Part shown: positions 21,984 to 62,901 of the stretch, in pieces
Numbering within the stretch: the first letter of the stretch is position 1
Layout: each line of letters begins with the position of its first letter
Assembly: GCA_963457665.1 (NCBI GenBank)
Contig: OY735219.1
Location: forward strand, 22,794,787-22,858,786
Direction of reading: 5' to 3'
DNA from: Thysanoteuthis rhombus
Taxonomy: Eukaryota; Mollusca; Cephalopoda; Oegopsida; Thysanoteuthidae
DNA: 64,000 nt
The notes under the pieces: model-generated
Database searches by the model: none
What the model was told of the DNA's origin: nothing
What the model saw: only the letters and a program-made list of their open reading frames with translations
Made by a program: the position numbers and the translations under genes

Positions 21984-22164
21984 GATTGTCTTGCTTTAGA
22001 TATTCAGAATGTACAGAAGCTTATGTCGATGTACTAAAACGCTGGAAGAGCCCTTGCCCAAAGGAAATCCATTTTGTCATCAAGAGTAAGAAACTTCTTG
22101 AACAAATTCAAGCCGCATTCACTTGTCATTTTTCTCGTCTGGCAACTGCAGCATCACGAAGCAG
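21984..22164 (+). CDS. Gene 1 exon: macrodomain C-terminus
   Basis: The acceptor TTTTTTCTTGCAG precedes it and GTAAGG follows. It reads (G)[20 protein letters not shown] and then [20 protein letters not shown]. This aligns with the gene 2 exon at 57890 (GIFGVPLDICTNGY..., KEVHFVDRNQ). It starts in phase 1 and ends in phase 2, exactly as in gene 2. The ADP-ribose phosphate-binding loop GIFG has become GLSC and the following Pro has become Arg, so binding by this macrodomain is doubtful. Confidence 0.8.
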
Positions 22165-61500: not shown

Positions 61501-62901
61501 GATTAAGAACTTTGTTTTATCTTAACAGTTTCAGTTGACTAAATCATTAGGCTCCGTCACATAACATAGCTTGAAACCTCTCAGAACACATACTTCTGCT
61601 ACTTTTTTAAAAAAAACTGAATGAGATATTGTGTGGGCAGATAAATAGCCACAGCTGCATACATATATATAGAAACAAAATCTTTAAAAACTTTGTTTGG
61701 CAGGGAAGGTAAGCAAGAATGGAAAATGAACATTTTGATATCCTAATGAATTTTATCTTATTCCTAAACCTTTTATTTGTAAATTACTGTATTATTTTGC
61801 TAGCTTGTTGAAGTATCTCTCATTTGATCAGCTACTCTACTGTGTCCTCTTCTCTAGCTCAAAATACATATTCACTTCTCCATCTCTCATGAATAAAATG
61901 ACAATGCATTCACTACACAACAGCCAAGATAATCCAACTACTGATTCTACTTACTTTAGGAAGTACACATGGCTTAAACCCCATGTGTTTTCTGTGCAAT
62001 GTCTTTTTCAGCATTGGGGAATGCTCCCCTCAAGTTGCTCATAGGCAATCACAAATTCATCGCCCACAACTTGGCATTTAGGCATACCACTAATGAATAA
62101 TTATTTAACGCCCGACTACTACAACTACTTTGCACAAAGCTCCCACCTTTTGCTTAGAAGCTATTTTGTATCTTCCTCCTCTACTTATCCTGAAGTTTAC
62201 ACTGTATGCCCCTTCTATCATGGATCCAATTTCCCTCCTTGATAACATAGTAACCAACTCTCTTCTTCACTATGAAAATGCTATGTAGAAATCTAAACTG
62301 ATCAGGCCTCTTCACAATTGTTTTTATTAACGTTTCTTTATATGTATTTTCTTTCTGCTCTACGTGTATTGTTATAGGTGTCTCATTATAGAATATACAT
62401 ATTATTTGTTTGCCCAATCATTCATGTGTGTTTTCATTATAATTACTACTCTCCTTCACTCACTATAGGAACCAACTATAACTGGTAACCAAAAATATCT
62501 TAGTCTATATCTCCTGTTTTTTCATGTAACATTCAGATTTTTAGATGAATAATCCAGATTTGATTTGGTAATTTTTATCGATATAATACCAAGTGAGAAT
62601 CCAATTTCATCGATAATTGAGTCTCTTTCAGAAGGGTTGTACATTAGTTTGTTTTTTTTGTAACATTTAAATTCCAATGTGAATGATCTGAACTTAATTT
62701 TCAAATTCTATTCTTGCAGGATGAAGTAAGAGGAACCAAAAAAGAGGCTTATTTACCTGTCACAGAAGAAGGAAAAACCATATTAAAAATGCTGCAATTG
62801 GCTTTTAAACGCTATCTTATATTCACAGTTAAAAAGGATGAAGAATGTGTTTCATGGTCTGATATTCCCCATAAAATCAGCCTATTTGGAAACCTTGAAA
62901 A
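49504..62901 (+). CDS. Gene 2: KH-like, three macrodomains, degenerate RING and DTC; 3' end off-window
   Basis: Eleven exons join without a stop into about 980 residues. In order: an N-terminal region with a PARP14-like SPYVEEFV domain (about 40-120); macrodomain 1, degenerate, no NAAN (about 140-310); macrodomain 2 with CNAAN and ALGTGLL (about 320-495); a Gln/Asn/Ser-rich linker; macrodomain 3 with VNAAN, GGGVAEAI and PAISSG-GIFGVPLDIC (about 625-800); a RING lacking three zinc ligands (about 842-870); and a DTC domain (about 880 on) lacking HPNPG and with IPHKI in place of IHHKT. Macrodomains bind ADP-ribose, so this protein probably reads ADP-ribosylated targets. It combines a PARP9/PARP14-like reader with a deltex end in place of the PARP domain. 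The last exon, encoding the GYPD-like segment, should lie right of the window. Confidence 0.85.
49828..50266 (+). CDS. Gene 2 exon: KH-like region and start of macrodomain 1
   Basis: Acceptor CTTTTAAAG, donor GTCAGT. It contains IKLSPYVEEFVRRNKKFSDL, resembling the repeated KH-like segments of PARP14, then PVDSLIIIDSKVP, where a macrodomain would normally carry VDxIVNAAN. Starts in phase 0, ends in phase 1. Confidence 0.8.
50360..51248 (-). mobile_element. Solo LTR, second copy, in gene 2 intron
   Basis: Reverse-strand relative of 18848-19826, with ends TGTAGTG...CTACA on the minus strand and shared blocks such as CCCCTATAAAACCCCTGGAC, GGTCCAATGCTCATT and CTGTTCGGATTCAACAA. No matching target duplication is visible. 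It is antisense to gene 2. Confidence 0.7.
51449..51871 (+). CDS. Gene 2 exon: rest of degenerate macrodomain 1
   Basis: Acceptor CATTTTCCAG, donor GTAAGT. Helix-strand patterns such as WNLLFEKCLKIVFRND, TIGISIPTEISSEHLIEFC and KRHIYILLFVKTSKMLREV follow a macrodomain C-terminal half, but the Gly-rich ADP-ribose loops are absent. Phase 1 to phase 1. Confidence 0.75.
52326..52600 (-). mobile_element. Tc1-type transposase C-terminal fragment
   Basis: The minus strand reads WPTNSPDLS near 52570, then across frame damage SDPEETFRSLLESMPDWIKA and VCRNVEDQ. These match the SPDLNPIE and ..LVxSMPxRIxAV..xxGxxT ends of Tc1-type transposases. Located in a gene 2 intron. Confidence 0.75.
52759..52817 (+). 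CDS. Gene 2 exon: start of macrodomain 2
   Basis: Acceptor AAATTACAG, donor GTATGC. It reads SAPKECTVSVIEGSITEQR, the first strand and GxIT turn of a macrodomain. Phase 1 to phase 0. Confidence 0.75.
53985..54295. repeat. G-rich minisatellite
   Basis: Units of about 40-50 bases alternate GAGGGTG- or GGGGGG-like blocks with ATGTTGAAAAA- or TTCAAAAGAGG-like blocks. Located in a gene 2 intron. Confidence 0.6.
54558..54676. repeat. (TG)n then (CT)n microsatellite
   Basis: About 30 bases of TG followed by about 85 bases of CT with one TTTC break. The Ser/Leu and Arg/Glu frames over it are artefacts. Confidence 0.95.
55045..55115. repeat. Dispersed intronic repeat, copy 3 of 3
   Basis: ACCAATTTAGCATAAATATA preceded by GAATGCTGTTGGATACAAGC; same family as 22440 and 27670. 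Confidence 0.6.
55620..55835 (+). CDS. Gene 2 exon: macrodomain 2 core
   Basis: Acceptor CTCTGATAG, donor GTGAGT. VDVVVCNAANDLCLGQGQVS holds the NAAN motif and a modified Gly loop (GQGQVSSAL). Phase 0 to phase 0. Confidence 0.85.
56038..56247 (+). CDS. Gene 2 exon: macrodomain 2 C-terminal half
   Basis: Acceptor TTTAACTAG, donor GTCAGT. IAFPALGTGLLNYPPLYAAE supplies the second phosphate-binding loop, followed by a helix and LKEIIIVIS. Phase 0 to phase 0. Confidence 0.85.
56434..56479 (+). CDS. Gene 2 exon: short linker
   Basis: Acceptor TTTCATTTTAG, donor GTAAGC. It reads GINLCEWKKTFAKTQ, closing macrodomain 2. Phase 0 to phase 1. Confidence 0.7.
56697..57461 (+). CDS. Gene 2 exon: linker and macrodomain 3
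   Basis: Acceptor TTTACTTTCCTCAG, donor GTTAGT. A polar linker with two SQDQFN/TQDQFN-like repeats precedes the best-preserved macrodomain: GPLVKVYEGDILNVDVDGIV, NAAN, LSHGGGVAEAIIEAAG, IIHAVGP and SIALPAISSG. Phase 1 to phase 1. Confidence 0.9.
57890..58139 (+). CDS. Gene 2 exon: macrodomain 3 end and linker to RING
   Basis: Acceptor TTTTCCCTTCTAAG, donor GTAAGT. GIFGVPLDICTNGYFLGVKE is the intact second ADP-ribose loop, then KEVHFVDRNQ. Homologous to the gene 1 exon at 21984, with identical phases (1 to 2). Confidence 0.9.
58775..59255 (-). pseudogene. Possible large lipid-transfer-protein pseudogene fragment
   Basis: The minus strand has a 123-codon frame including VSLIRNGYPTSVALCKIKQN, CPIPVALYQMMLSLNMEKNN and QMKEFSFKVYENIFRN, then after a frameshift YKSAEILTKFLPNYKHMYKD. 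The order (xPxxxLYxM, EKNxQxKxFxxxxxxN, then a kxLxPxY end) resembles the helical lipovitellin N-terminal domain of vitellogenin and apolipophorin-type proteins. A roughly 125-base internal duplication is visible. It lies antisense in a gene 2 intron, with no splice borders. Confidence 0.35.
59644..59905 (+). CDS. Gene 2 exon: degenerate RING and start of DTC
   Basis: Acceptor TTTTGTTTTCTAG, weak donor GTAATA. CSSC, GCGLIFC and RC supply five of eight zinc ligands: the His is Leu, and the final CPxC pair is absent (YFKSHKPSDIV). The start of DTC survives weakly (HPGGTM, EIKYYI). Phase 2 to phase 0, as in gene 1. Confidence 0.8.
60090..60260. mobile_element. Possible mariner-type terminal fragment
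   Basis: TACGAGGTCTGTCTAGAGAG at 60090 resembles terminal inverted repeats of mariner-like elements (TACGAGGTCTG...). No transposase frame or clear opposite end was recognised. Confidence 0.25.
60345..60422. repeat. (TA)n microsatellite
   Basis: TA repeat with one G interruption adjoining the inverted SINE. Confidence 0.9.
60423..60701 (-). mobile_element. SINE-like element, copy 2, inverted
   Basis: Inverted relative of 26583-26830 (TGTGTCATCCACAGACAGCT, GGCCGATATCCTACCTCTGG, GAATGCTCTATTCCTATAGA). Again bordered on both sides by TA arrays. Located in a gene 2 intron. Confidence 0.7.
60702..60757. repeat. (TA)n microsatellite
   Basis: TA repeat on the other side of the inverted SINE. Confidence 0.9.
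60856..61180 (-). mobile_element. 5'-truncated RTE-like LINE, minus strand
   Basis: Inverted TGA tail (GTCATCATCATCAGTC), then on minus GKINVQRQTLKD, RDELDRFWEYWLHDAHDREM, WTSRLKTWIPRDH and WAGHVARM-type blocks. Truncated after [10 protein letters not shown]. Located in a gene 2 intron. Confidence 0.8.
61795..62490 (+). mobile_element. LTR-like element, family 2, copy 2
   Basis: Same-orientation relative of 38900-40050 with internal deletions. It starts near AAGTATCTCTCATTTGATCA and ends near AGGAACCAACTATAACTGG. It sits about 230 bases before a gene 2 exon. Confidence 0.55.
62720..62901 (+). CDS. Gene 2 exon: DTC core, degenerate
   Basis: Acceptor CTATTCTTGCAG, donor GTAAGT. EAYLPVTEEGKTILKMLQLA closely matches gene 1, but HPNPG is missing, the TVG loop is shortened and IHHKT reads IPHKI. 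Phase 0 to phase 2, as in gene 1, so a terminal exon is expected downstream. Confidence 0.9.

Follow-up and report, generated by a model that had tools for sequence, protein, structure and literature searches.

Two tandem squid genes combining macrodomain and DTX3L-type RING-DTC sequences: a predicted active ligase and a putative pseudoligase

How the reader and ligase parts of one signaling system came to reside in separate proteins is a question raised by the interferon-induced complex of PARP9, DTX3L and PARP14, which joins ADP-ribosylation to ubiquitination. A copy of a fused reader-ligase that keeps its macrodomains and loses the ligase would be one route by which such a fusion comes apart. 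Here, we analyze a 64-kb stretch of the Thysanoteuthis rhombus genome (contig OY735219.1, positions 22,794,787 to 22,858,786; hereafter, the window) that contains parts of two neighboring genes, denoted gene 1 and gene 2, both related to proteins in which macrodomains precede a DTX3L-type RING-DTC ubiquitin ligase module. A preliminary description of this DNA proposed that gene 1 retains the ligase and gene 2 the ADP-ribose reader, a division of labor resembling that of DTX3L and PARP9 and reached by decay of the opposite ends of duplicated fusion proteins. The exon structure, the domains, the losses and a rise in evolutionary rate concentrated in the ligase end of gene 2 can all be read from the sequence. 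In our assessment, with a probability of about 0.6, two tandem paralogues of old origin are partly contained in the window, of which gene 1 would encode an active E3 and gene 2 a maintained macrodomain protein and pseudoligase.

Reading frames and splice signals together yield two gene models on the + strand, with AG/GT borders and matching phases. The first exon recognized in gene 1 starts at 21984 and the last one recognized in gene 2 ends at 62901, the same limits as in the preliminary description. Gene 1 (21984-28646) is entered mid-gene, and the window holds only its 3' part, four exons with intron phases 1, 2, 0 and 2; gene 2 (49504-62901) comprises 11 recognized exons with 979 codons and no stop (phases 1, 0, 1, 1, 0, 0, 0, 1, 1, 2, 0). 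At the corresponding borders, namely, in the macrodomain loop, before the RING, within the DTC and late in the DTC, the phases in the two genes are identical, and the lengths of their DTC exons are 36 bases apart, a number divisible by three. Neither the start exon of gene 2 nor its last DTC exon, which would carry the partner of catalytic E733 (see below), was found within the window.

For comparison, we used 53 fusion proteins that score above 20 bits with both the macrodomain and the DTC in our own profiles, from protein searches that gave 252 proteins (one search scored a capped set of 7993 candidates, another contributed the best 120 of 495). Genes 1 and 2 were the seeds of these profiles and also contributed rows to them, so that the scores of the two genes are not independent there, unlike the Pfam scores; nor are the 53 proteins independent of each other, as the set contains isoforms and near-copies (for example, P0168, P0169 and P0201; P0183 and P0206). 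A common molluscan layout consists of macrodomain A (GTGxLxYP), canonical macrodomain B (NAAN, HGGGVA, SSGIFGVP), degenerate macrodomain C, RING and DTC.

Gene 1 encodes a module that looks like an active Deltex-type E3. A complete RING, with all eight ligands (CCCHCCCC), is followed directly by a DTC, the arrangement that defines the DTX3L-type RING-DTC, and alignment to the relatives shows that HPNPG, IHHKT, FGYPD and TLEL are all kept, in agreement with the preliminary description, which had listed the ligands, IHHKT and TLEL. Pfam calls DTC at 185.3 bits (7e-55) and zf-C3HC4 at 38.8 bits, and no Macro. Among the matches listed, vertebrate DTX3L proteins are about 50–60% identical to gene 1 over the RING-DTC, and the solved structures matched include the DTX3L DTC (145 residues aligned) as well as DTX1 and DTX2 chains. 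We take the first His of IHHKT to be H707 of DTX3L, and place E733 likewise, by residue count from the length of the protein. Counterparts of both residues are thus kept in gene 1, in IHHKT (His) and xxEL (Glu); in DTX3L, these two residues form the catalytic pair, according to an excerpt of PMC10810221.

The ligase end of gene 2 is different. Its RING ligand columns read CCCLCC--, that is, five of eight, and Pfam calls no RING family at E up to 1; in the standard cross-brace scheme, the five ligands left comprise the first zinc site in full and a single ligand of the second. The HPNPG columns are empty, the stretch having been deleted, and IPHKI replaces IHHKT, with loss of the H707 equivalent. 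These are the three kinds of loss that the preliminary description had noted. The DTC is still recognizable by homology (Pfam, 45.5 bits, 1e-11, against a cut-off of 25), and no alternative intact RING or HPNPG exon was found in the gene 2 introns. The combination of three lost ligands, lost HPNPG and lost H707 equivalent occurs in none of the 53 relatives, among which all eight ligands are kept in 47, seven in 5 (in P0161 and P0212 the change is merely Cys to His) and none in the P0186 model, where IHHKT is kept; IHHKT is kept in 50 and HPxPG in 48, and the replacement of the first His by Pro alone is seen also in P0170 and P0197. The RING-DTC of gene 2 should be dead as a ligase.

In the RING-DTC tree of 61 sequences, from which P0186 and P0201 were left out as incomplete, the branch of gene 2, at 5.07, is the longest, that of gene 1 being 0.52 and the median 0.36. 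In quick trees of the two halves, split at the exon border, the branch of gene 2 is 9.14 for the RING half (median 0.58, gene 1 1.31) and 3.48 for the DTC C half (0.29 and 0.27, respectively). Although fast throughout, gene 2 has changed most strongly in its ligase end.

The macrodomains of gene 2 have fared better. Pfam Macro scores 154 bits (2e-45) over two stretches, A and B, and macrodomain B (residues 621-798) retains NAAN, HGGGVA and SSGIFG. The preliminary description called this an intact macrodomain 3; intact it is by these motifs, and the numbering is not established with two macrodomains detected, a third and possibly degenerate one sought ahead of A having a profile score no better than that of shuffles. 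The degenerate RING-adjacent macrodomain C is missing. The solved structures matched by macrodomain B are PARP14 macrodomain 1 (3q6z), AF1521 of Archaeoglobus and one chain of PARP9; for macrodomain A, they are further macrodomain chains of PARP14 and different chains of PARP9. Hydrolytic macrodomains are characterized by Asn and Gly flanking loop 1 and by a hydrophobic followed by an aromatic residue in loop 2, as given in an excerpt of PMC10221186. Macrodomain B has both sets of features, and because these are features of hydrolytic macrodomains, 'eraser' is as likely a predicted role as 'reader', the label given to gene 2 earlier, which was too narrow. In the N-terminal region, single-exon AlphaFold2 models have a mean predicted local distance difference test score (pLDDT) of 52 and 56, without a PDB match at E<=0.001, and these low-confidence models revealed no KH-like interaction module that could be identified with confidence.

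What remains visible of the gene 1 macrodomain is a single tail exon. It scores 19.2 bits against canonical (type B) macrodomain tails (maximum of 4.2 in 500 shuffles), 10.8 bits against the degenerate RING-adjacent type C (shuffles reach 10.3) and 6.4 bits against type A (shuffles reach 9.7); assignment to the degenerate type was dropped, given the better fit of the canonical profile. Among 2893 six-frame open reading frames (ORFs), the tail ranks third (E 2e-4), after two gene 2 exons, with a canonical-tail profile built without either gene, and fifth (E 8e-4), after four gene 2 exons, with a whole-macrodomain profile that included gene 2. In both genes, the exon border, with its phase, lies ten residues from a conserved Cys, so that GIFGVPLDIC in gene 2 corresponds to ?LSCFRYSEC in gene 1. 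Loop 2 placed in this manner contains L followed by S rather than a hydrophobic and an aromatic residue, and because border, phase and distance equate the loops, a serine would stand in place of the aromatic hallmark of hydrolytic macrodomains. Of the loop given earlier as GLSC, only L-S-C is visible: the leading G would come from a split codon (?GA), the first base of which lies in an exon outside the view.

No macrodomain core for gene 1 was found at positions 1-21983 on either strand, in tblastn searches with gene 2 and 37 relatives or with profiles run on six-frame ORFs; in these searches, gene 2 exons and the gene 1 tail exon alone stood out. The core is off the window or lost. At least one macrodomain with all four loop features is present, by our rule, in 49 of the 53 relatives, and a second one in 4 by the rule and in 2 (P0158 and P0166) by inspection, given that two of the rule-based cases count a His in a type C domain as aromatic. 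Because so few relatives have a second canonical macrodomain, none is expected in gene 1, which favors a real loss of its canonical macrodomain over an intact copy off the window. Similar loop changes next to a complete or nearly complete RING-DTC are found in amphioxus (SSGACG in P0200, SAGANG in P0191).

Several findings weigh against the interpretation of these genes as an active ligase and a maintained pseudoligase with complementary losses. To begin with, no interaction surface between the two products was identified and no contact was predicted. Gene 2 might instead be a stand-alone macrodomain reader or eraser, with no tie left to ubiquitin or to gene 1: the macrodomains are its best-kept part and the catalytic features of the RING-DTC are gone, but the recognizable DTC C half suggests that a structural role is left, and we view this alternative as possible, if on the unlikely side.

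For gene 1, the pairing of L-S-C with G-I-F-G is not reproduced by multiple alignments, a loss of hydrolysis need not equal a loss of binding, and gene 1 could possibly bind ADP-ribose through other macrodomains, at least two macrodomain matches above 30 bits being present in 38 of the 53 relatives. Gene 1 could thus be an ordinary fusion of full length whose working ADP-ribose macrodomain lies upstream of the window, in which case there is no division of labor, only a normal gene and a paralogue with a lost ligase end. Along with the near-ubiquity of a four-feature macrodomain among the relatives, the phase 1 acceptor of the visible tail exon, which implies that coding exons should exist upstream, speaks for this alternative; against it, the altered macrodomain is of the canonical type, which is usually the intact one, a second four-feature macrodomain is rare, and the upstream intron would have to span at least 22 kb, compared to 0.4 kb at the same place in gene 2. 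We consider it unlikely.

With regard to gene 2, the rise in rate is not confined to the ligase end: the branch of macrodomain B, 50th of 55, is 1.01 long compared to a median of 0.44 (0.35 if identical rows are included), and that of macrodomain A, 1.52 compared to 0.72 (0.68 with identical rows counted; 17th of 18, the second longest). In the RING exon, the differences between gene 1 and gene 2 by codon position (0.56/0.53/0.58) show no sign of constraint, and the RING part of gene 2 may be decaying. Moreover, no close relative of either gene was found among the matches listed, where the candidates were proteins of at least about 540 residues and one candidate set was capped, so that conservation of the dead RING cannot be demonstrated. 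The long branch, the fast macrodomains and the even divergence of the RING exon across codon positions would fit a gene en route to becoming a pseudogene, in which the RING-DTC decays first and the rest follows. The duplication appears to be old, however, because the synonymous distance is saturated (Nei-Gojobori nonsynonymous distance dN 0.71, synonymous distance dS 2.28; undefined for the DTC exon, and the ratio was not used), and because it is old, a dead gene 2 would be expected to have acquired stops by now. Yet, its 11 exons contain no stop or broken splice site, with rough odds of open frames at intron base composition of about 3e-33 for the whole of gene 2 and 1e-5 for its pair of RING-DTC exons (the exons had been picked as open). 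The composition is also coding-like, with G+C highest at the first codon position in all eight gene 2 exons tested (RING exon, 0.49/0.35/0.36; DTC exon, 0.47/0.30/0.25), and the differences between the two genes in the DTC C half (0.37/0.34/0.64) carry a signal of constraint. Pseudogenization thus appears improbable; the gene 2 protein is probably maintained, with a ligase end not kept for catalysis, and we infer that gene 2 is expressed, its RING-DTC dead and its macrodomain active. Least probable is a 5'-truncated gene 1, a short DTX3-like RING-DTC ligase starting in or near the RING exon with the macrodomain-tail exon as a leftover, as the 22 kb upstream without a coding match, the repeats there (including a tandem-repeat block at 13.2-18.85 kb) and an in-frame ATG ahead of the RING could suggest, given that this exon still has a clean acceptor, a clean donor and a matching phase.

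Under the preferred interpretation, gene 1 would ubiquitinate ADP-ribosylated or other targets via its RING-DTC, and gene 2 would bind, and probably hydrolyze, ADP-ribose marks with macrodomain B, perhaps also binding them with A, while having no ligase activity of its own; it would thus recognize or trim ADP-ribose on targets, with the RING-DTC as a non-catalytic remnant. Should common N-terminal or DTC surfaces bring gene 2 into contact with gene 1 or with further active fusions, gene 2 could tune them, by analogy with the action of PARP9 on DTX3L or of an inactive TRIM paralogue on its active partner. The gene 1/gene 2 heterodimer proposed in the preliminary description is a conjecture. The complementary loss itself is better founded for one gene than for the other: a dead ligase next to a good macrodomain in gene 2 and the intact RING-DTC of gene 1 fit a PARP9/DTX3L-like split by sequence, and the gene 1 half, seen from one macrodomain tail exon, is plausible but unproven. 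Decay of opposite ends in duplicated fusions likewise holds in part, drawing on the family membership, the equal splice phases and the changed ligase end of gene 2, with the gene 1 end partial and the sister status of the two genes neither supported nor rejected (approximately unbiased test, p 0.48). That reciprocal end decay in tandem fusions re-created the split into a DTX3L-like ligase and a PARP9-like reader-eraser, acting as an obligate complex, is a doubtful proposition. Gene 2 would be a natural pseudoligase with which to ask what a DTC does without catalysis.

Comparison with known systems brings out both likenesses and differences. In gene 1, a macrodomain tail directly precedes the RING, whereas human DTX3L has one RRM and five KH-like domains there, according to excerpts of PMC11080071 and PMC13224862; the same excerpted texts describe a tight PARP9-DTX3L complex to which the KH-like domains contribute and a hydrolytic macrodomain 1 in human PARP9. 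The macrodomains of gene 2 match those of PARP14 and PARP9 but, unlike these proteins, the gene 2 model has a DTC remnant at its C-terminal end and no ADP-ribosyltransferase domain in the Pfam search. Like gene 2, many invertebrate fusions, such as P0171 (Mercenaria), P0149 (Batillaria) and P0188 (Lingula), carry macrodomain A and canonical B ahead of the RING-DTC; proteins of this type are deposited mostly as uncharacterized, hypothetical or DTX3L-like. Gene 2 differs as the sole one of 54 in which RING ligands and HPNPG/His are both lost, and in lacking the macrodomain C of many molluscan members. A diverged-RING copy next to an active paralogue is also known from TRIM49/TRIM51, with a different RING family, the pair described here being known from sequence; there, according to PMC11992055, the inactive TRIM copy binds to the active one and represses it.

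The presence of single-chain fusions in molluscs (bivalves and gastropods), a brachiopod, an annelid, echinoderms (crinoids, a starfish and a brittle star), a tunicate, amphioxus and a soft coral suggests that these modules were joined once or repeatedly. The set further includes the loris model P0170, flagged as low quality by its source and perhaps a merger of genes, the other 52 being non-vertebrate where named. We met no description of invertebrate macro-RING-DTC fusions in the titles and abstract openings searched, the coverage of which is incomplete, and the words 'invertebrate' and 'fusion' are absent from PMC13224862 and PMC11251020; PMC8195618 places orthologues of DTX3L and PARP14 in co-expression modules of Aplysia, with no domain analysis in the passages concerned. 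In Mya, Saccostrea, Mizuhopecten, Potamilus and Nucella, two or more copies come from contigs that have the same length, so that the fusion genes appear to be clustered in several species. In the freshwater mussel Potamilus, P0182 has the catalytic His replaced by Tyr and Glu by Gln, with eight RING ligands and the macrodomain B features kept (SSGIFA) and a DTC C-half branch (1.48) second only to that of gene 2; P0185, whose contig has the same length, combines an intact DTC with GKYG in macrodomain B. The two are a possible second, independent, partial complementary pair, and it is plausible that clustered copies have lost DTC catalysis more than once.

Some other features of the family deserve mention. 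Macrodomain C is degenerate in both loops in many molluscan fusions (32 instances by rule; for example, P0164 1636-1814) and is probably an old non-catalytic macrodomain. In P0203 (Elysia) and P0213 (Plakobranchus), which share a long branch, Gly occupies the position of the RING His (CCCGCCCC). In the 1918-residue P0158 (Lingula), a PARP catalytic domain called by Pfam accompanies two macro-RING-DTC units, which puts writer, reader and ligase into one chain.

Table 1 Exons recognized for the two genes, in window coordinates
Feature	Positions	Strand	Basis
Gene 1, first visible exon: canonical-type macrodomain C-terminal tail, loop 2 altered (?-L-S-C vs G-I-F-G)	21984..22164	+	AG/GT, phase 1 in / 2 out; tail profile
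Gene 1: linker, RING (8/8 ligands), DTC start	22727..23144	+	Splice signals, Pfam, alignment
Gene 1: DTC with HPNPG and IHHKT	25372..25589	+	Splice signals, alignment
Gene 1, last exon: FGYPD, TLEL, stop codon	28532..28646	+	Splice signals, alignment
Gene 2, first exon recognized; phase 1, so not the gene's first	49504..49592	+	Splice signals and frame only
Gene 2: N-terminal region; single-exon model opens beta-alpha-beta-beta-alpha (KH-like order)	49828..50266	+	Mean pLDDT 56, no significant structural match
Gene 2: N-terminal region, alpha/beta	51449..51871	+	Splice signals, profile, single-exon model
Gene 2: macrodomain A, first strand	52759..52817	+	Splice signals, ORF profile search
Gene 2: macrodomain A	55620..55835	+	Splice signals, Pfam, own profiles
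Gene 2: macrodomain A, loop GTGLLNYPP	56038..56247	+	Splice signals, profiles, alignment
Gene 2: short exon following macrodomain A	56434..56479	+	Phase and splice signals only
Gene 2: linker and macrodomain B core (NAAN, HGGGVA)	56697..57461	+	Splice signals, Pfam, alignment
Gene 2: macrodomain B tail, GIFGVP loop intact	57890..58139	+	Splice signals, alignment, ORF profile search
Gene 2: degenerate RING (5/8 ligands) and DTC N half	59644..59905	+	Splice signals, alignment, codon comparison, half-trees
Gene 2: DTC C half; HPNPG stretch deleted, IPHKI for IHHKT	62720..62901	+	Splice signals, alignment, codon comparison

The window as a whole consists of repeat-rich animal DNA, with long introns, a G+C content of 0.30-0.39 in 30 of the 32 two-kb bins, and no tRNA found in its 64 kb. 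In a search for a recent segmental duplication between the loci, the pairs listed (60 of 219) are repeats. Diverged tandem-repeat blocks with periods of about 134-203 bases lie upstream of the first visible exon of gene 1 (13228-18850 and 4659-5671). Retroelement-like fragments at 20702-21252, 24166-24764, 47094-47405 and 60866-61192 have similar reading frames, occur in both orientations and apparently belong to one family, with some members inside introns of gene 1 and of gene 2; the first two form an inverted match at 75%. Another inverted pair, 18840-19758 and 50362-51256, is about 0.9 kb long with 79% identity, the latter copy being located in the gene 2 intron after the second recognized exon.

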